Source of the DNA: Thermococcus henrietii
Lineage (GTDB): Archaea > Methanobacteriota_B > Thermococci > Thermococcales > Thermococcaceae
DNA: 64,000 nt
Assembly: GCF_900198835.1 (NCBI RefSeq)
Contig: NZ_LT900021.1
Coordinates: 1,302,001-1,366,000 of the forward strand
Reading direction: 5' to 3'
Of the stretch, positions 3,975-59,700 are shown one piece after another (the first letter of the stretch is position 1; each line of letters opens with the position of its first letter). The notes beneath the pieces were generated by a model. That model saw only the letters and a list, made by a program, of their open reading frames with translations, had not been told where the DNA came from and did not search any database. A program made the translations under genes and the position numbers.

Positions 3975-4562
3975 TTAGAGTCTCCGTTTCTTGTCCCTCT
4001 TAATTTCCTCAATGAGCTCTTTTAGTGCCTTCTGGCGCTCGACTTTTGAGTAGAACTCATATTCATCCTTTAGAAACTCGTAGTGCTCTCTCTCATCCTC
4101 AGCGAGGCGCTCCATGAGCTTTTTGTGCTCTGGATTTTCCAGGAGCTCTGCGAGGAGCAGGTAGAGCATCTCGGAGAGCTTTTCGGCGTCCATCCCTATC
4201 TCAAGAACCCGCAGGTAATCTCCGACAGTTCTAAGTCGGTAGTCTTTTTCTGAGAAGACCCTTGCCCAGCTCTTCAGATGAACCTTCGGAACATCCTCGC
4301 CGGGAAACAGGCTCTCGAACAGCCGGGAAACCTCCGAGTCGTGGTCCTTCTCCATCTCCAAGAACTCCCTGAACTTGTCCCGTGGGTAGCCGTCCGGCAG
4401 GTTCTCGTAGAGGAAGCGGTACAGGTTCGTTGAGTCCACTTCCCCCTTGAGGATGTATGCCATTATCTCCTTCAATGATTTTTGAGACAGCTCCCTAACG
4501 GCCTTTCGGATTTCCTCCCTCACGCTGGCTTTTTCCATGAAGAGCTCTAAGGCTCTGCCCAT
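3975..4562 (-). CDS. Ferritin-like (rubrerythrin-type) protein
   Basis: A 195-residue, almost entirely helical protein. Spaced acidic and histidine residues fit a four-helix diiron bundle: KGEVDSTNLY near residue 40, EMEKDHDSE near 70, DAEKLSEMLYLL near 125 and DEREHYEF near 160. It is a divergent paralogue of the gene at 63315, with which it shares helices and an LFPGE-V-KV linker. A role in iron handling or peroxide defence is typical of the family, but complete metal binding is not certain here. GAGGGTGAT precedes the ATG, and a TATA box (TTTTATAC) lies near 4592-4599 on this strand. Confidence 0.6.
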   Translation of the reverse strand: MGRALELFMEKASVREEIRKAVRELSQKSLKEIMAYILKGEVDSTNLYRFLYENLPDGYPRDKFREFLEMEKDHDSEVSRLFESLFPGEDVPKVHLKSWARVFSEKDYRLRTVGDYLRVLEIGMDAEKLSEMLYLLLAELLENPEHKKLMERLAEDEREHYEFLKDEYEFYSKVERQKALKELIEEIKRDKKRRL

Positions 4563-5101: not shown

Positions 5102-6922
5102 TCAAAGGACCCTGAGCAGATATACGAGACCAACTATCAACGCCAGCAGGATGTACGCGACGTAAACGCTGTCCGAGCCCCTCATCAGCCCGTGCCTGAA
5201 CCACTCCGAGAAGTTCAGATAAGCTCTCGAGAGCTTTTCGTAGGCGATGTTCACCCTTTCGCGCCAGTAGAGCCTTCCGTTCTCCTCCCTCGTACCGTAG
5301 AGCCAGCCCTCGGTTATGAGGAGTATTGCGGAGTGGGCTATCGGCGGGTACTCCGGGTTGCTCAGCCCGCCGCTCCAGGCCCTGACGCGCCTGACCCTCT
5401 TGAACACGGTCAGCCTTGCTATAACGTAGACGCTGACGCCGAAGACCGTCACGAGGCCGGCTAGGTAGGTCGGCGAGATTCCGCCAAAGTCCTTGGCCAC
5501 AACAAGAAAGCCGTCCTTTATGCCGAGCGCCCCGCCTATGAAGGACGTCGCCTTTATTCCGGCGAGCGAGCCGACGACGCTATCAACGAGCTCGAAGACC
5601 GCCAGCGGGAGAACTCCCACCATCACCAGCACGGCACCCATGAAGGCGTAGGCGATGTCCTCCGCGGAGAGCTCCCTTCTCCCTCCGGCGCGCTGGATTC
5701 CGTGGGTTATTATCTTGCTCATCGCGACGCCCGCGACGCCCGCCGTTAGCGCAACGAGCGACCCCACGAGGACCATGAGGACCTTGAGCCTGGCGTCCGG
5801 TATCTTGAAACTCTGGAGGAGCGTCTCTATGCCCATCCATTCGCCGAGGAAGCCCGGGAACGGGGCTACGCCGGCCAGGCTGAGGGCGGAGACATAGCCC
5901 GCGACGACGCCGACGGCGGTGAGCCTGCCGGCCCTGACCTCGGGGAAGCGCCCGGTTCCGTTCTCAAGCCTCCCCGCGAGCAGGAAGAGCAGGCCCTTTG
6001 CAACGCTGTGGGCGAAGGCGTAGAAGAGAAGCGCCAGCAGTGCAAAGGAAGCCAGCGTCCTGTTGCCAGCGTTCAGGGCGACGACGGTTCCGCCTAAGAG
6101 CGCCAGCAGAACGCCGTCGTTCTCGACGGTGCTGTAACCTGGCAACTTCTTGACGTGCTCGGTGCCGGCCGCGTAGGCCGCTCCAAGTATGGCAGTCAGC
6201 CCACCGAGCAGGAGGAAGAACGAGCCCACCCACGTGGCAGGACTCTCAATGAGGAGCAGTCTGACGAACCCGTAGACCCCCATGAGCGTCAGAACCGCGC
6301 TCAGGAGCGAGGAAAGGTTCGCCGGGGCCTTGCCGTGTGCATCCGGAAGCCAGACGTGGAACGGAAACATGGCCATCTTAACCGCGAAGCCGAGGCCTGC
6401 CAGGAAGAACGCAAGGCTCCAGAGTTCAGAGCCCTTCCATGCTGAAAACACCGTGGAGCCGGTCTCAACGGAGAGCAGGCCGAAGCCGGCCAGGATTAGG
6501 AGCGCGCTCAGCTCGCCGAAGGCGAGGAACTTGTAGGCTTCCCTCCTCGAGTTCTCCCTCGCGGTTATCCCGAAGTAGCTCGCTATCGTCATGACCTCCC
6601 AGCCGACGAGGAAGCCGACGGCCCCCTTTGCGAGGAGTATCATAAGCATTCCGGCGATGCTCATAGCGAACGAACCGGCTAACAGCCTCGGATAGTGGTC
6701 GTCGTAGCTCAGGCTGAACAGCGAGGCCCCGAGCCACACTATTCCAGAGACCACGAGGAAGTAGCGGGAAACGTCGTCTATTCCCTCCGGCCGGACGAGG
6801 GCGAGAACCAGCAGGCCGGCCGAGAGAATGGCCGAGAGCGCGTAGCTTGCTTTCCTTGAGAGCACCGCGAGCAGGGAAGCGACGATGAAGCCTATGGTTA
6901 TCGCGTAGAACGGGTTAATCAT
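5102..6922 (-). CDS. Ehr complex antiporter-like subunit (HyfB/NuoL type)
   Basis: A 606-residue membrane protein of the Mrp-antiporter/complex I family with about 14-16 membrane segments. It keeps the ion-path residues typical of these subunits: a glutamate in GWEVMTIASYFGI near residue 110 and a lysine followed by FPFHVWLPDAHGKAPANLSS near 180-200. The C-terminal extension (residues about 510-606) contains RERVNIAYEKLSRAYLNF and a final membrane helix, as in HyfB. It is the last gene of the six-gene minus-strand operon; its start overlaps the previous stop (ATGA). It should form part of the proton or sodium channel of the complex. Confidence 0.88.
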   Translation of the reverse strand: MINPFYAITIGFIVASLLAVLSRKASYALSAILSAGLLVLALVRPEGIDDVSRYFLVVSGIVWLGASLFSLSYDDHYPRLLAGSFAMSIAGMLMILLAKGAVGFLVGWEVMTIASYFGITARENSRREAYKFLAFGELSALLILAGFGLLSVETGSTVFSAWKGSELWSLAFFLAGLGFAVKMAMFPFHVWLPDAHGKAPANLSSLLSAVLTLMGVYGFVRLLLIESPATWVGSFFLLLGGLTAILGAAYAAGTEHVKKLPGYSTVENDGVLLALLGGTVVALNAGNRTLASFALLALLFYAFAHSVAKGLLFLLAGRLENGTGRFPEVRAGRLTAVGVVAGYVSALSLAGVAPFPGFLGEWMGIETLLQSFKIPDARLKVLMVLVGSLVALTAGVAGVAMSKIITHGIQRAGGRRELSAEDIAYAFMGAVLVMVGVLPLAVFELVDSVVGSLAGIKATSFIGGALGIKDGFLVVAKDFGGISPTYLAGLVTVFGVSVYVIARLTVFKRVRRVRAWSGGLSNPEYPPIAHSAILLITEGWLYGTREENGRLYWRERVNIAYEKLSRAYLNFSEWFRHGLMRGSDSVYVAYILLALIVGLVYLLRVL

Positions 6923-7524
6923 TCGACATCCCTCCCGGCGACCTTGAGGAGGCCCTCTATAATCTGAACAGGACTGGGCGGACAGCCCGGAACGTAGCCG
7001 TCAACCGGAACGAAGTCCTCCACCTTCCTACCGCACAGCGCGCCGTTGGCGCAGGCGCCCAGAACCAAGACCCGCTTGGGTTCGGGCATCAGCTCGTAGG
7101 CCTCCTTCAGGACCGGAATCATTCCGTCGGTCGGACAGCCCGCAACCAAAAGAACGTCCGCGTGCTTCGGCGTCGGCGTGAAGAATATCTTGAGCCTGTG
7201 GATGTCGTAGTTCGGACTGTGGAGGAGCGCAACCTCCCTGTTGCAGGCGTGGCAGGTTCCGACGTCAAGGAAGAAGACGTGGAGTGACTTCCTGAATGGA
7301 AGGGGGTTCTCAACCTCGCTCAGCCCGGTTTTCTGGCCGAAGGGGACGTTGCAGAGACGGCAGTTGATGCACTTCCTGTAGTCAAGTCTCCCGTCTTCAA
7401 CGGCCCCGAACGGGCACTCCGCCGGAGCCTCGAGCGGGAAGCTGAAGGGAAGCTCCTCCTCGCTCACCCTCTTGGGATACTCGCTCGTCAGAACGCCCTT
7501 TCTGAGCCCCCTGATAATCCACAT
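6919..7524 (-). CDS. Ehr complex small subunit (NuoB-like) with N-terminal ferredoxin-like part
   Basis: About 201 residues. The N-terminal 70 residues hold CPFGAVEDG and CINCRLC, remnants of a ferredoxin-like domain. The rest is a NuoB/hydrogenase small subunit with cysteines placed for a proximal [4Fe-4S] cluster: GTCHAC near 105, VAGCPTDG near 145, GACANGALC near 170 and PGCPPSP near 185. Electron transfer into the complex therefore looks intact although the partner large subunit has no NiFe site. ATG 7524 follows GAGGAGTG, is preferred over GTG 7527, and touches the upstream stop. Confidence 0.85.
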   Translation of the reverse strand: MWIIRGLRKGVLTSEYPKRVSEEELPFSFPLEAPAECPFGAVEDGRLDYRKCINCRLCNVPFGQKTGLSEVENPLPFRKSLHVFFLDVGTCHACNREVALLHSPNYDIHRLKIFFTPTPKHADVLLVAGCPTDGMIPVLKEAYELMPEPKRVLVLGACANGALCGRKVEDFVPVDGYVPGCPPSPVQIIEGLLKVAGRDVE

Positions 7525-8729
7525 CACTCCTCACCCCCCTGCCAGAGGTCTGCATCCGCGAAGTTCAGGCCAAAGCTGTGCAGTCCGAAGGGGAAGTCCG
7601 TGAAGATGTTCCCTGTTATGCCCCTGCAGAAGGCCACGTAGTTTATCCTCGACGCTCCCCTGAGGCCAATCCACGAAACTCTGCCGTCCCTCAGCTCCAC
7701 GAGCGTAAGAACGTCACCGTGCGGGGCCTCCGCCAGTCCGAGGTTGAGGCCCCCCTTAACCGCAGGGTCAGAACTCAACGCCCTGAAGTCGATTCCCTCG
7801 ATAATCTCGAAGGAGCGCTCTATTTCCTCCATGCGGACCATGAGCCTCGCAAGGGCGTCTCCGTCCTCGCACGTCACCGGTTTGTAGGAGTAGAACCTGT
7901 CGAAGGCCCGAACATCCCTCGGGACCCCTGAACCCCTCGACGCTATCCCAACGGCGTCGAGCTCGATTACGTCCTCCCTGCTCAGCCGGCAGGTGTTGTG
8001 GAGACGGTCGATGAATATCTTGCTCTCAAGCAACTCCTCCCTCAGCTCGCGGAACTCCTCCTTGAGCTTCCCCAGCCTTTCAACGGCCCTTCCGTCGAGG
8101 ATTCTAACCCCTCCAGGAACGTTCGCGCCGAAGCCGTAGCGGTGGCCGGTCAGCCTGTTGAGAACCCTGAGCGTTTCTTCCTCGAGCCAGTGGAAGTGCA
8201 TCGTCGCGACCTTCTGAGATGCATCCCCAGCGAGCTTGTGGATGACGTTGAAGTGGTTGTAGAGCCTCTCAATCTCGAGGAGGCCCTTCCTGACCTCCCA
8301 GACGTCTTCGTCGGGGTTGGCCTCAACGGCCCTCAGAAAGGCGTAGGTGTAAGCTAAGGCGAAGTTCCCGACGGCCCTCTCAAGGACTGCTATGGTCTCC
8401 TCCAGCGGGCGGTTTATCAGCCTCCCCTCGATTCCCCGTCTCTTGTAGCCGTAGACGGGCCTTATCGAGACTATCCTCTCGCCGTAGGTGAGTATCTCGA
8501 AGGCCCCGGCCTGCCCCAGGCCACCGGCGGCGGGACCGAAGGTGAGGGGAACCGCGTTGCTTCCCGGCGGGATTCTGATGTAAGGCGTGGTCTCACCAAC
8601 AAGAGCGGGCGCAATCTTCCTGTCCGGCAGTCTCTCCTCTTCCCTGATGAGCGCCTCGCCCGTGTCGTAGTCGAGCCAGACCGTTAGATAGTTCCCGTTC
8701 CTCCTGAAAACGGCCGAGAGAGCCATCAT
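7524..8729 (-). CDS. Ehr large subunit: NiFe-hydrogenase-like protein without NiFe ligands
   Basis: A 401-residue protein of the group 4 hydrogenase large subunit/NuoD family. Landmarks are GPAAGGLGQAGAFEILTYGERI (about 65-86), a helical core, and EAPHGDVLTLVELRDGRVSWIG (about 334-355). The two CxxC motifs that bind NiFe are gone: the N-terminal site reads ERAVGNFALAYTYAF (117-131) and the C-terminal site FCRGITGNIFTDFPFG (367-382). The only cysteines are C247, C287 and C368. It therefore cannot bind a normal NiFe centre. Loss of ligands in an otherwise complete cluster defines energy-converting hydrogenase-related (Ehr) complexes. It overlaps the upstream gene by ATGA. Confidence 0.85.
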   Translation of the reverse strand: MMALSAVFRRNGNYLTVWLDYDTGEALIREEERLPDRKIAPALVGETTPYIRIPPGSNAVPLTFGPAAGGLGQAGAFEILTYGERIVSIRPVYGYKRRGIEGRLINRPLEETIAVLERAVGNFALAYTYAFLRAVEANPDEDVWEVRKGLLEIERLYNHFNVIHKLAGDASQKVATMHFHWLEEETLRVLNRLTGHRYGFGANVPGGVRILDGRAVERLGKLKEEFRELREELLESKIFIDRLHNTCRLSREDVIELDAVGIASRGSGVPRDVRAFDRFYSYKPVTCEDGDALARLMVRMEEIERSFEIIEGIDFRALSSDPAVKGGLNLGLAEAPHGDVLTLVELRDGRVSWIGLRGASRINYVAFCRGITGNIFTDFPFGLHSFGLNFADADLWQGGEE

Positions 8730-10084
8730 ATTACCAGACCCCCGGTGAGTGCAAGGTAGACCGCGTAGAGGCTTACCCCGAGCGCTACGAGCGTCATTAT
8801 CAGGGGTATCAGCTCCTCACCGCGCTGGAACTCCGCTCCCTTCCCCCCGCCGAAGAGCATCTTGGCCGAGTGCCAGTTGAGGGCCAAGAACGAGAGGAGC
8901 AGTCCCGTTCCGATGAGGAGGGCCCACCAGCGGTTTATCGAGAGGGCCACCCCGAGTATCGACAGCTCCGCGAGGAAGGTTCCGAAAGGCGGTGCACCGG
9001 TCACCGCCAGGGCCGATAATCCGAAGGAGTAGCCGAGTGCCGGACTGTCCTTCATAAGGCCGTTGATTTCCCCAATCTCGTGGCCGTATCTACTCACCGC
9101 GCTTCCGGCTGAGATGAAGAGGGCACCCTTGGCGAAGGCGTGAACCGCGACGAGGACGAATACGAGCTTGAGCAGGCTCGGCCTGTAGTAGCTCAGCGCG
9201 ATGCCTATGGTAGCTACACCCATCATGTCCATGCTCGAATAAGCCAGGAGCCTTTTGACGAACCTCTGCGAGGCCATCAGGATTGACGCCACCAGGACCG
9301 TCAGGATTCCGACGGTTAGGGCTATGTAGACGGCCTCCTTTCCGAGGCCCGTCGATGCCTTGAAGAGGCGGTAGTAGACGAGGAGCGCCGTTGGGAGGAG
9401 CGTTCCCGAGAGCATAGCGCTGACCGGCGAAGGGGCGCTTCCGTGGGCATCTGGAAGCCAGCCGTGCATCGGGAAGAGGCCGACCTTTGTTCCGAAGCCG
9501 ACTATGGCAAGCAGTCCGATCACGGCACCGGCCTTCTCGGAGAGAACGAGGTGCCTGACGTCGAGGGTTCCCGCGAAGCTGTAGGTTATGACAACAGAGA
9601 GGAAGGCAATTCCAAGGCCCGCGGAGGCGATAATCATGTAGCGCCAAGCCCCCTCGACGTTCCGCTTCTTGCCGTCTGTGATTATGAGTATCGCGCTGAC
9701 GACGGTCGTCGCCTCAAGCCCAATCCACATCCAGCCGAGGTTCGAGACGACGGCGGTGAAAATCATCGAGAGCGCGAAGAGCGAGAGGAAGCTCCAGTAG
9801 AGCCTGAGCGGGTAGAATGGCCTCTCGACCCTCTCGACGTAGTAGAGCGAGGCCAGGGAGGCAAAGAAGTAAATCCAGGCTATCGTCGTCGCCAGAATCA
9901 TCGAGTACCAGTCGGCGTAGAAGTAGTGGCTCGAGACGGTGTAGCCCCTGATGAGCATGTCGGTTGCCATTGATGCCGTTATGAAGGCCAGCCCGGGGAC
10001 GATTGCCCTGCCGAGCCTCTCCGAGATGAGCGGAAGGAGCGTTGCTATGAGTGGTATCGCGAGCAGGTAAACCACGGCCTCCAT
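8726..10084 (-). CDS. Ehr complex antiporter-like subunit (HyfF/NuoN type)
   Basis: A 452-residue polytopic protein, the second antiporter-like subunit of the cluster. Key ion-path residues are present: glutamate in WIGLEATTVVSAIL near residue 120 and lysine in FGTKVGLFPMHGWLPDAH near 205, followed by GSAPSPVSAMLSG. The ATG at 10084 (MEAVVYLLAIP) is chosen because GGGGTGAT lies just upstream and it begins 4 bases after the HyfE-like stop; a longer open frame to 10138 would overlap that gene heavily. Confidence 0.87.
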   Translation of the reverse strand: MEAVVYLLAIPLIATLLPLISERLGRAIVPGLAFITASMATDMLIRGYTVSSHYFYADWYSMILATTIAWIYFFASLASLYYVERVERPFYPLRLYWSFLSLFALSMIFTAVVSNLGWMWIGLEATTVVSAILIITDGKKRNVEGAWRYMIIASAGLGIAFLSVVITYSFAGTLDVRHLVLSEKAGAVIGLLAIVGFGTKVGLFPMHGWLPDAHGSAPSPVSAMLSGTLLPTALLVYYRLFKASTGLGKEAVYIALTVGILTVLVASILMASQRFVKRLLAYSSMDMMGVATIGIALSYYRPSLLKLVFVLVAVHAFAKGALFISAGSAVSRYGHEIGEINGLMKDSPALGYSFGLSALAVTGAPPFGTFLAELSILGVALSINRWWALLIGTGLLLSFLALNWHSAKMLFGGGKGAEFQRGEELIPLIMTLVALGVSLYAVYLALTGGLVI

Positions 10085-10088
10085 GCTA

Positions 10089-10706
10089 TCACCCCACCAG
10101 CTCCTCGACTTCCAGCGGTCCGTAGCGCTTCTCGGCACCTAAGACGACCGCGAGCAGGACGAAGGCTATCATATCGAGCAGTATCCCGAACTCAAGGACC
10201 ATGGGCATCGGCGAGAGCATCACCGCGAGGTAGAGGAGCGCGTTCTCCTCGCTGAGGTAGCCGACTATCTGGGCCAGGGCGTTCCTCCTCGAGGCTATGA
10301 TGAGCATGCCCAGGAAAAGCAGGACGAAGGCTATGACCCCGCTCCAGTTGTCCGTTGCCCTGTAGATCGGGATGTAGAGGAAATACGCGAGAACCGCCAC
10401 GACGAGGCCGAGGACTATCGCGTGGTGCGTCGTCTTAATCTCCCTTCCGCGCCAGATTCTCTCCTTCCTGACGTCCCTCTGGAGGAGCCAGGGTATCAGA
10501 AGTGCCCTGAACGCTATCGTGATTCCGCCGAGGATTATGAGCTCAGGAATCCGCTTTTCCCAGCCGACTATTCCGATAATCAGACCGATTAGGACGGACT
10601 GGAACGCAACCGCCTCAATCAGCGAGTGCATGTAGGACTCGGTGAGCATGAAGAAGGCCGTGAGGAGGACCACCGAGCCTAGCAGGTTTAGGATTTCGTT
10701 GATCAC
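10089..10706 (-). CDS. Ehr complex membrane subunit (HyfE-like)
   Basis: A 205-residue membrane protein with about six hydrophobic segments. Its order in the cluster, between the NuoH-like and NuoN-like genes, and its NuoK-like content match HyfE of hydrogenase 4-type complexes. A charged loop (RDVRKERIWRGREIKTTHH, about residues 77-95) lies between membrane pairs. Its ATG overlaps the upstream stop (ATGA). The function is to help build the ion-translocating arm; it has no cofactor. Confidence 0.8.
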   Translation of the reverse strand: MINEILNLLGSVVLLTAFFMLTESYMHSLIEAVAFQSVLIGLIIGIVGWEKRIPELIILGGITIAFRALLIPWLLQRDVRKERIWRGREIKTTHHAIVLGLVVAVLAYFLYIPIYRATDNWSGVIAFVLLFLGMLIIASRRNALAQIVGYLSEENALLYLAVMLSPMPMVLEFGILLDMIAFVLLAVVLGAEKRYGPLEVEELVG

Positions 10707-11671
10707 GGCGCACCACCCCCGAGGAGGAAGCTGATAACGCCCATTATCGCCAGGAGGAAGCTGGCGGAAAGGTAGTCGATGATGCGGAAGAGCCTTATCT
10801 TCGCCAGGGTCTCCTCAACGACGACGAAAGCCAGGATGAGCCCGAGCATCTTGACGAAGAGCGTCGCGATTCCCTTGGCAATCTCGACTAAACTTGCGCT
10901 CGTCGCGAGGCCCCATGGGACCGCGAAGACGTTGAGGAAGACCGCCATCAGGATGAAGGACTTCATGTAGCCCGCCCAGGAGTTGAGGGCGTAGAGCGGG
11001 CCTGTGTACTCGAGACCCTTTGCCTGGTCGAGCATTCCGAGCTCGTTGCTTCCGTGGGACTCGATTGGGAGCTTTCCCGTATCGAAGAGCAGGAGCATGA
11101 AGAACGCGGCCGTGATGAGGATGTGCGTCGGGCTGAGGTACCAGCCTTCCGCCGTTACCCTGTGGTTCATCAGGAACGGGTTGTTGGTTCCGGTGATTAT
11201 CGCCACTCCGAAGAAGACCATTATGAGGACCGGCTCCGCGAAGGCCCCAAAGTTCACGGAACGGGTTGCCCCTATCCCGGTGTAGTAACTTCCCGTCCTC
11301 TCGGTGGCCAGAACCGAGGCCATCGCGGCGAGGCCGAATATGAAGGTCCCGCCGAAGAAGTCCACCGTCGGGGCCAGCCAGCTCGGGAAGTTGCCGACTA
11401 TCGGGAGCACCCAGGGCAACGTCAGCATTGCACCGAAGGCTACGAACGGCGCGATGACGAAGAACGGGCCGACTCCCTCTGGAATCAGCGTCTCCTTCCT
11501 GAAGAACTTCGCGAGGTCGTAGTAGGGCTGGAAGATGCTTATTCCCTTCCTCGACTCGATGCGCGCCTCTATCTTCTTAAGGATTCCTACCATTAGGGGT
11601 GAGAGCAGGAGCACCACTATAACCTGAACTAAACCGATAACCACCCTGTCTTCCGGGTTCAAAGGCGTCAC
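10703..11671 (-). CDS. Ehr complex membrane anchor (HyfC/EchB/NuoH-like)
   Basis: A 322-residue membrane protein of the NuoH family. EARIESRKGISIFQPYYDLAKFF (about 34-56) corresponds to the conserved loop that contacts the hydrophilic arm, and LPIESHGSNELGMLDQ (about 200-215) to the acidic funnel. It would link the redox module to the antiporter-like subunits. It is the first gene of the operon. The start is GTG at 11671, preceded by GGGGAGGTGACG; no ATG is available nearby. Confidence 0.87.
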   Translation of the reverse strand: MTPLNPEDRVVIGLVQVIVVLLLSPLMVGILKKIEARIESRKGISIFQPYYDLAKFFRKETLIPEGVGPFFVIAPFVAFGAMLTLPWVLPIVGNFPSWLAPTVDFFGGTFIFGLAAMASVLATERTGSYYTGIGATRSVNFGAFAEPVLIMVFFGVAIITGTNNPFLMNHRVTAEGWYLSPTHILITAAFFMLLLFDTGKLPIESHGSNELGMLDQAKGLEYTGPLYALNSWAGYMKSFILMAVFLNVFAVPWGLATSASLVEIAKGIATLFVKMLGLILAFVVVEETLAKIRLFRIIDYLSASFLLAIMGVISFLLGGGAP

Positions 11672-11800
11672 CTCCCCGATATGGAGAGAACAGGCGTCAT
11701 TAGCCCCTGTTCGGGGCAGTTAGGGCGGACGCCATCGCCCGGAAATTTGCCCGGCGGTTTTATGAGGCTGGGTTTTTAAAGGTTTTGAGAACTCGGGAGT
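11672..11800 (-). promoter_or_regulatory. Leader and promoter region of the Ehr operon
   Basis: A 129-base gap. On the minus strand CTTTAAAAACC (rc of about 11771-11781) is the best TATA box, implying a leader of about 80 bases. Two GC stems fall in that leader: GCCCC/GGGGC at 11703-11717 and GGGCG/CGCCC at 11723-11740. They could affect initiation or processing. I found no SurR-type GTTnnnAAC site. A weaker TATA (CATAAAAC) is near 11756-11763. Confidence 0.35.
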
Positions 11801-41998: not shown

Positions 41999-43079
41999 TT
42001 TTATCCCCTACATCAGCGGATTTCTCGTGATACTTGCTGACCTGACGGCCGCTTTCTTAATCCTCCGCGTATACTTGAGGAGGCGTAGAAGGTCTGCCCT
42101 ATTCTTTTCCGCCGCATGGTTTGCCGATATGCTGATGGTTGTTCTTTCAATGTCGATGAATCCCCTGATACGGATGATTGCTGAATTTTCACTGACTATC
42201 TTTGCCATGCTGGTTTTTATGGGGTCCGTGAGACTACTCGATGAAGAGTTGATTCCGGTCCCCCACTATATTCTCCAAAGGATGGCACTTATGGCACCGA
42301 TTTTTTATATCTTCGTTGCCTCGGTGTATCACTTCACAGGAAATGCCGACTGGGCCCTCACCGCGGGGGTCTCCCTGGGAATAAGTGGGGCTTTTGTGTT
42401 TGCCAGCGGTGTCCTTCTGAGGCCCCTTGAGACGGTTTACAAAAAGCCTGCGAAGGTTCTATACCTCAGCGTTCTACTGTTTGGTCTTCACTTAGTTCCA
42501 GCGGCACTTTTCGGTCTCTACGAGTGGTACCTTCCCATTGGCTTTACCCTCTCAACGGCGCTCACGATAATGATGGCATATTCAATGCTCAGGTTAACCT
42601 CTACAAGGGAATTCCTTGAGGGGAGAGGCGAGGTTAGGGTTCCTGAAATTCATAGCGGGACAATTATACTCCAGCCGGAAGATTTCGAGGAGGTTCTTCC
42701 GAAGCTTCGAGAAGCGCCAGTGCTTGCATTTCTTCGCGACTTAAAGTACTCCCAGAAAAGCTGGAAAACCTACTTTATAACTGCAGTCCCTTTTCGGAAG
42801 GAGGGAATCTCGGGAACGATAAACCCCACAGAACTCGCTAAGATGACGGAAATCGTCTACCAGTACCTAGAGGAAACCAAACGGATGGGCTTACCTGGGG
42901 TTGTTGTTATGGATTGTCTGGAGTACCTCAGCATGTACAACCATTGGGATTCGCTTATGAAGTTTCTGTCCAAGCTTAGAGACTTAGTGCTGGTTAGGGG
43001 TGGAACGCTCATCATCGTCGTAGACAGAAACAGCGTGGAAGAACGGCTCTTCAACCAGCTAAGAAAACTCCTCGAGTGA
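41985..43079 (+). CDS. Membrane protein with C-terminal DUF835 domain
   Basis: A 364-residue protein. The first 210 residues hold about seven membrane helices (PYISGFLVILADLTAAFLIL to AYSMLRL). The cytoplasmic C-terminal domain (about 235-364) contains GTINPTELAKMTEIVYQYLEE and LPGVVVMDCLEYLSMYNHWD, typical of DUF835, a domain of archaeal sensory proteins related to RecA/KaiC-like modules. The architecture suggests a membrane sensor. The ATG at 41985 follows GAGGAGGG and overlaps the PaaK-like gene, so the two are coupled. Confidence 0.8.
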   Translation: MTSADFIPYISGFLVILADLTAAFLILRVYLRRRRRSALFFSAAWFADMLMVVLSMSMNPLIRMIAEFSLTIFAMLVFMGSVRLLDEELIPVPHYILQRMALMAPIFYIFVASVYHFTGNADWALTAGVSLGISGAFVFASGVLLRPLETVYKKPAKVLYLSVLLFGLHLVPAALFGLYEWYLPIGFTLSTALTIMMAYSMLRLTSTREFLEGRGEVRVPEIHSGTIILQPEDFEEVLPKLREAPVLAFLRDLKYSQKSWKTYFITAVPFRKEGISGTINPTELAKMTEIVYQYLEETKRMGLPGVVVMDCLEYLSMYNHWDSLMKFLSKLRDLVLVRGGTLIIVVDRNSVEERLFNQLRKLLE

Positions 43080-43082
43080 GGG

Positions 43083-43323
43083 TTTATAAACCACGTCTCA
43101 TACTTAGAAACGCCCCCGCGCGAGGACCCCGGGGAGAATGAACCGGGGGGCGATGCGGGGGCTACAGCCCGGCCTCAGCGAGGTCCCCGCGGGAGGGCCT
43201 TCCGCGTCCCGGAGCGCGATGACCACGGGAAACCCAGGCCGGGCACAGTTCTCGCCCGCCTGGGTTAACCCGCCTGAGTGTGGCGTTGCCTTCGATGAGG
43301 GCGGGCGTTACGGGCGGGCGACA
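43083..43323 (+). ncRNA. Triple-hairpin H/ACA guide RNA
   Basis: TATA box TTTATAAA (43083-43090) precedes three adjoining hairpins, each closed by a GC stem and followed by ACA. Hairpin 1: GCCCCCGC 43112-43119 with GCGGGGGC 43155-43162, ACA 43164-43166. Hairpin 2: GCCCGGCCT 43167-43175 with AGGCCGGGC 43236-43244, ACA 43245-43247. Hairpin 3: CGCCCGCCT 43253-43261 with GGGCGGGCG 43312-43320 (one G-U), ACA 43321-43323. Inner stems carry kink-turn/loop sequences (GAGAATGAA, GCGATGACC, TTCGATGAGG). Each would guide pseudouridylation with Cbf5, L7Ae, Nop10 and Gar1. Hairpin 1 pocket arms are GCGAGGA and GGCGAT. Confidence 0.85.
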
Positions 43324-43451
43324 TCTACCAGCTGTTCTCTGAGTTGATAATGTTCCTTTTAGTTATATATTGTCACACTGTTGGACGGACGATAGAAAGG
43401 GTTATTAACCCGAAACGCATAATGAATAATGCCATGACTGAGAGTGATCTT

Positions 43452-59615: not shown

Positions 59616-59700
59616 GTTTTTATTGGCTTCCCCAATCCACCACGCCCGATGACGAGCTACTCCCGGCTGAGCGGTGATGAGCCACCTACCGGCCGAGGGC
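59616..59700 (+). ncRNA. C/D box small RNA with its TATA box
   Basis: TTTTTATTGG (about 59616-59625) is a TATA box 25 bases before the RNA. Terminal stem GCCC/GGGC (59644-59647 and 59697-59700), C box core GATGA (59648-59652), D' box CTGA (59667-59670), perfect C' box GTGATGA (59674-59680) and a D box read as CCGA (59693-59696), one base off consensus. Guides are CGAGCTACTCCCGG and GCCACCTACCGG. Spacings of 14 and 12 bases are normal. The RNA itself is 59644-59700. Confidence 0.75.

Follow-up and report, generated by a model that had tools for sequence, protein, structure and literature searches.

A Hyf-like complex without a nickel-iron site lies behind a fluoride riboswitch in Thermococcus henrietii and in bacteria

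What does a membrane complex do that keeps the build of a hydrogenase and has lost its metal site, and when does the cell make it? The question is raised by a six-gene operon on the minus strand of a 64,000-nucleotide stretch of the Thermococcus henrietii genome (contig NZ_LT900021.1, positions 1,302,001 to 1,366,000; hereafter the window). An initial annotation, made from the sequence alone, had placed the operon among the Ehr class of hydrogenase relatives and left its electron acceptor open. We likewise found no evident acceptor, but that reading had overlooked a fluoride riboswitch directly upstream of the operon, conserved with it across Thermococcus and a bacterial clade, which gives the complex a specific setting, fluoride stress. 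Sequence comparisons tied the operon, at the level of genes, to fluoride and to a single clade lacking the nickel-iron (NiFe) ligands. We therefore favour, with moderate confidence, a complex I-like member of the Ehr class that is induced by fluoride and translocates ions.

The functional unit starts at position 11748, where the aptamer of a fluoride riboswitch (RF01734; 11684..11748, minus strand) forms the 5′ leader of the operon, directly 5′ of the first gene. The match scored 52.1 bits against a gathering score of 34 (E 1.4e-13). When 24 distinct leaders were compared, helix and pseudoknot were found to covary, with both sides changed in 7 of 10 pairs, a result obtained in 0 of 500 shuffles, and 96.3% of cells were paired, compared with 44-58% when the leaders were slid. 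Each of the 14 Thermococcus contigs that contain both has the riboswitch ahead of the NuoH-like gene, including one with an ortholog of 59% identity. A chance match was ruled out by score, covariation and conserved position. Across 94 genomes, most Thermococcales had one riboswitch, and genomes with the operon had a second, some 3 kb 5′ of the gene for the large subunit. The one other fluoride riboswitch of the T. henrietii genome lies ahead of an operon whose last genes are crcB and a member of the DUF190 family. There (L129 3045-6489; C1:1433045-1436489) a prenyltransferase-like gene and two open reading frames (ORFs) come before crcB and DUF190, a layout that matches the puzzling one of TK0513-TK0514 in T. 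kodakarensis, for which the same riboswitch/crcB arrangement has been reported (PMC4247193).

How the riboswitch might act was suggested by conservation and folding of the putative expression platform (11660..11677, minus strand), which contains the Shine-Dalgarno sequence GGGGAGGTGA, a second GACGCC (11669-11664) and a TTG start codon at 11662. The sequence GGAGGTGACGCC was kept in 15 of 15 Thermococcus leaders while the bases preceding it varied, and on the basis of these leaders the first gene probably starts at TTG 11662 (GTG in two orthologs) and not at GTG 11671. In the same 15 leaders the pseudoknot strand, GGCGUC, could pair with either of two identical GACGCC sequences, one in the aptamer and one that lies after the Shine-Dalgarno sequence and before the start codon. 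Both copies are invariant in Thermococcus, and in four of five folded leaders the minimum-energy fold paired the 5′ half of the aptamer with the start region. We infer a translational ON switch, in which fluoride would lock the aptamer and free the ribosome site; since the paired bases do not vary, this scheme is a model only. The riboswitch would bind fluoride and thereby control the operon; on the sequence comparisons, such control is well supported.

The association was then followed outside the archaea. Searching plasmids with the large subunit by tblastn led to bacterial relatives, and the riboswitch lay just upstream of the operon in all four distinct plasmid loci, with a NUDIX gene in between in Mycobacterium branderi. 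The gene order in M. branderi and Burkholderia multivorans was that of the window, and the region also held enolase, DUF190, MutS and pyrophosphatase genes; on a conjugative plasmid of B. cenocepacia, crcB and a CLC gene were found near the operon, and in Caballeronia CLC stood behind a separate riboswitch of its own. The fluoride-island genes beside bacterial operons comprised crcB, CLC, pyrophosphatase, HAD, DUF190, enolase and MutS. In an independent check with the NuoH-like subunit of the window operon as query against 72,556 plasmid records, the top six matches (208-210 bits) were exactly the fluoride-linked records, and the next scored 149-151. Nine other NiFe-less Hyf-like plasmid loci, which begin with the HyfB-like gene, had no riboswitch. 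A profile scan of genome contigs with a Thermococcus profile returned just Thermococcus and one plain NuoD, a scan of viral contigs gave no matches, and a phylum-wide search around the T. henrietii genome yielded no additional members outside Thermococcus.

With a profile of the clade, dozens of strong matches were obtained in 400 Chloroflexota genomes. We analysed 40 of these loci and sorted them into 15 of type F, with the order NuoH-HyfE-HyfF-large-small-HyfB, and 25 of type E, in which HyfB comes first (a few are atypical). Among the 12 testable Chloroflexota F loci, seven had a riboswitch: six directly upstream in the genome-wide search and a seventh, at 27.4 bits, from a laxer scan that was used on F loci only. 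The contigs of the Chloroflexota E loci had none. Counting Thermococcus once and including the plasmids, the riboswitch accompanied 12 of the 17 F loci that could be tested, compared with 0 of the 34 E loci (Fisher p ~4e-8; 11 of 17 and p 3e-7 without the seventh locus), p-values that are indicative only because the loci are related. Known fluoride-island genes flanked 5 of the 15 Chloroflexota F loci and 0 of the 25 E loci. A DUF190 gene also stands directly 3′ of the second F-type operon of one Chloroflexota genome (G116; L166 7246 onward), and genes of this family accompany crcB or F-type operons in Burkholderia, Mycobacterium and Thermococcus as well.

We then asked how these complexes are related. 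In a maximum-likelihood tree of 61 large subunits, the F type formed a single clade of archaea, actinobacteria, proteobacteria and Chloroflexota (bootstrap/Shimodaira-Hasegawa-like approximate likelihood ratio test 100/100), and the window operon, which has the F gene order, fell within it. This clade is sister to NiFe-less E types (97/93), indicating that loss of the NiFe site came before the link to fluoride; other Chloroflexota E types retain all four ligand cysteines. The archaeal copy is nested in a largely bacterial clade, which suggests lateral transfer between archaea and bacteria, in either direction. The window large subunit lay within the Hyf-like group and Mbx well outside it, so that an Mbx-like identity was ruled out by the tree and the Hyf-like assignment of the initial annotation, which had been based on the subunit set, gained a second footing.

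The large subunit (NuoCD/HyfG-like, 401 residues; 7524..8729, minus strand; PF00346, E 3.9e-20) had been described as having lost both CxxC motifs, with C247, C287 and C368 as its only cysteines, and therefore as no part of a normal hydrogenase. Alignment with HycE, HyfG, Thermococcus Mbh and other hydrogenases confirmed this: the four NiFe ligand positions correspond to V120/F123 (RAVGNF) and the L388/F390 region (SFGLNF) and are empty, and none of the three remaining cysteines is conserved across the wider clade. Orthologs of 59-98% identity were found in 12 other Thermococcus genomes. Eleven aligned orthologs spanning this range have an uninterrupted frame and likewise no ligands, and in just one further genome a single TAG breaks the frame; because the 11 share open frames and the same residues, displaced cysteines and a frame error were ruled out. 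The ligands were missing in 23 of 23 clade members, and in place of the GPxH histidine all bacterial F members have Arg and Thermococcus has Ala. The protein also has no C-terminal maturation extension, and the residues of the complex I quinone site (the HPxxH-loop His and the helix 1 Tyr of NuoD) are replaced, with GPAAGGLGQ and RAVGNF at the aligned positions. Its predicted fold (predicted local distance difference test score 88.5) was closest in the PDB to E. coli HycE (7z0s_E, template-modelling score 0.84). In the absence of CxxC ligand pairs and, in the operon and its flanks, of a formate dehydrogenase gene, identity as a NiFe hydrogenase or formate hydrogenlyase was ruled out.

The remaining subunits bore out the description of a six-gene Hyf/Ech-type operon. 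The minus strand from 11671 to 5102 holds six consecutive ORFs that match, in order, NADHdh/NuoH, HyfE, Proton_antipo_M, Complex1_49kDa, Oxidored_q6 and Proton_antipo_M, and all six have Hyf counterparts. The NuoH/HyfC-like membrane anchor (10703..11662; 319 residues from the TTG; PF00146, E 1.7e-30) has conserved E146, E210 and E221. It is followed by a HyfE-like membrane subunit (10089..10706; 205 residues; NF008556, hydrogenase 4 membrane subunit, E 4.5e-14, under the curated cut-off) and a HyfF-like antiporter subunit (8726..10138; 470 residues; PF00361, E 2.3e-45), whose start is more likely ATG 10084 because the ORF overlaps the preceding gene. After the large-subunit gene come a NuoB-like small subunit fused to a one-cluster ferredoxin-like domain (6919..7527; 202 residues; PF01058, E 1.9e-18) and, last, a HyfB-like antiporter subunit (5102..6922; 606 residues; NF005046, hydrogenase 4 subunit B, 475 bits against a cut-off of 460), in which E109, K182, K309 and E361 are all retained. 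The small subunit keeps the proximal [4Fe-4S] cysteines previously noted (C92, C95, C159 and C182) and carries a ferredoxin-like N-terminal CxxCxxC cluster that had been missed (C38, C53, C56 and C59); both sets are invariant in 13 orthologs. Two further cysteines, C131 and C165, are also invariant in Thermococcus and are not ligands of known clusters. No formate dehydrogenase gene was present in the operons or annotated flanks of the window and bacterial loci, in line with the earlier statement that no dehydrogenase gene adjoins the operon, and no subunit of the MrpA/B/C/E-G type was found in it. A large subunit like that of group 4 hydrogenases without the NiFe residues, encoded together with NuoH-like and antiporter-like subunits, is what defines the Ehr class, to which the operon had rightly been assigned. 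With its pump residues retained, the complex may also couple a redox reaction to ion movement, as is expected of that class.

Most F members retain the proximal-cluster cysteines. Losses at the junction of large and small subunits were also seen among the E types of the Chloroflexota. In three of them (L172, L174 and L178, from G144, G204 and G236) the large subunit keeps all four cysteines (CGAC ... CYSC) and the small subunit has Asp in place of most proximal-cluster cysteines (GSDN / GDEAC / GDPP), the reverse of the usual loss. In L195 and L197 (G163 and G122) and their relatives, NiFe-less E types from small genomes, NiFe ligands and proximal-cluster cysteines are both lost (GSDNSAEIEL / GDDAC / GNPPEP) and the whole operon is retained.

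Hydrogen fluoride (HF) is a weak acid that enters and acidifies the cell, and the export of fluoride depends on the proton-motive force and spends membrane potential; after the exporters, Na+/H+ antiporters are the next commonest class of gene behind the riboswitch (PMC11139923). A proton-translocating complex therefore fits this setting. Under our preferred reading, rising fluoride would cause the riboswitch to free the ribosome-binding site so that the complex is made, and the complex would then export protons (or cations), offsetting the acid load from HF and restoring the membrane potential spent by the CrcB channel in expelling fluoride. In T. henrietii it would most likely be driven by electrons from a ferredoxin-type donor, which would enter by the ferredoxin domain of the small subunit, cross the proximal cluster and reach an acceptor in the remodelled site that no longer binds nickel; ferredoxin-driven pumping is favoured in this species since none of the cluster cysteines varies. 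The sequences show the regulation and the single clade, whereas we infer induction, ion movement and the acceptor; control by fluoride has good support, the source of power does not.

Several observations weigh against this proposal. The quinone-site His and Tyr of complex I are missing and no acceptor is evident. The HyfF-like antiporter retains E142, K218 and E391 and has P249 where its central Lys is expected, so that the earlier claim of ion-path Lys and Glu in both antiporter-like subunits held in full for the HyfB-like one only. Two F loci (G250 and G496) gave marginal riboswitch matches of 21-23 bits at the right position, and no riboswitch was found at a third (G469). In M. branderi and in copy a of G116, both riboswitch-linked, all four proximal-cluster cysteines are lost, which argues against a redox drive there and leaves the existence of any electron acceptor uncertain; at least in those two, the role in fluoride response may not require electrons to reach the old active site. 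Finally, the operon could be under fluoride control for a different reason, for instance to keep redox balance while enolase is inhibited.

The loss of these cysteines, with the loss of the NiFe ligands and quinone residues in all members, is what gives weight to the main rival, a redox-free, Mrp-like antiporter in which the hydrophilic arm is structural and H+ is exchanged for Na+ or K+, providing pH homeostasis under fluoride much as NhaA would. Antiporters are a common riboswitch class and NhaA antiporters stand behind other fluoride riboswitches; however, the strictly kept iron-sulfur cysteines of most members and the extra ferredoxin-type cluster imply electron transfer, and the operon has none of the Mrp subunits listed above. 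We regard this alternative as possible but rather unlikely. Equally tentative is a broader proposal, that the family is a branch of the complex I superfamily dedicated to the fluoride response and spread laterally between archaea and bacteria, and that some of its members have lost every redox site at the junction of large and small subunits and still work, as non-redox ion (or fluoride-coupled) transporters.

Other explanations were considerably weaker. An Mbx/Mbs-type sulfane-sulfur or NADP reductase with an incidental riboswitch would share the superfamily, and in MBS the proximal cluster alone has been proposed to carry out the chemistry, but the large subunit branches among Hyf-like proteins, at a distance from the genome's own Mbx, and the link to the riboswitch is found again and again in both archaea and bacteria, making this reading improbable. 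Direct extrusion of fluoride or HF, with the rebuilt site or the membrane arm as an anion path, would account for the riboswitch control and for the change of the GPxH His to Arg in bacterial members, which might alter anion binding. Thermococcus has Ala at that position, though, CrcB or CLC exporters are already present alongside, and no complex I relative is known to move anions, so we consider it very unlikely. That the complex is a formate hydrogenlyase, producing H2 by formate oxidation under fluoride, can hardly be entertained: Hyf/Hyc subunits are the nearest by name and fold, and published lists of riboswitch genes carry the label (PMC2864571, PMC11139923), but NiFe ligands in 0 of 23 clade members already contradict it, as does the lack of a maturation extension and, in the operons and annotated flanks, of a formate dehydrogenase gene.

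Beyond the operon, a rubrerythrin-family gene lies just past its 3′ side (3975-4562, minus strand), and rubrerythrin homologs sit immediately upstream of the operon at two other loci (L069 and L077); a functional link is possible. The plus strand of the window also encodes two known Thermococcales small RNAs, HgcG (43056-43328; 218.6 bits) and the C/D-box RNA sR10 (59645-59698).

The riboswitch link gives hydrogenase relatives with no assigned reaction a concrete condition in which to study them, fluoride, and a genetically tractable genus, Thermococcus. If the preferred reading is right, defence against fluoride includes a large multi-subunit ion translocator beyond the known exporters and antiporters. 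Formate hydrogen lyase genes were listed behind the crcB motif in 2010 by Weinberg (PMC2864571), and a 2024 review repeats the link and reads it as formate oxidation for ATP (PMC11139923). Those genes likewise have crcB RNA in the 5′ untranslated region of annotated formate hydrogenlyase subunits and, matched by description and not by locus lists, are probably the same family as the F complexes. The members described here, however, have neither a NiFe site nor a formate dehydrogenase, so formate oxidation with H2 is inapplicable. Our results suggest that the recurring label is a misnomer, in which case conclusions based on the name, for instance that fluoride makes cells turn to formate fermentation, would be unfounded. 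In the open-licence literature searched, we found no description of the riboswitch-linked complexes as NiFe-less Ehr.

Compared with formate hydrogenlyase-1 and hydrogenase-4 of E. coli (Hyc/Hyf), which provide the closest solved fold for the large subunit and counterparts for all six subunits, the window complex lacks the CxxC pairs, the C-terminal extension, FdhF and the HyfD, HyfH and HyfJ genes, and has a one-cluster ferredoxin fused to its small subunit. With Mbx/MBS of Thermococcales it shares a hydrogenase-like build, an altered metal site and, probably, a ferredoxin donor; the Mbx encoded in the T. henrietii genome, however, retains cysteines (RICVPES, NCPPDID) and differs in its subunit set, and the window complex forms a separate deep branch. 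The nearest sister in the tree is the NiFe-less, Hyf-like type of Ehr, which has the same group 4 hydrogenase/complex I architecture, antiporter-like subunits and missing NiFe ligands. From this sister the window complex differs in having its HyfB-like gene last and not first, in the replacement of the GPxH His by Arg or Ala, and in its fluoride riboswitch, which was found at none of the sister loci examined.

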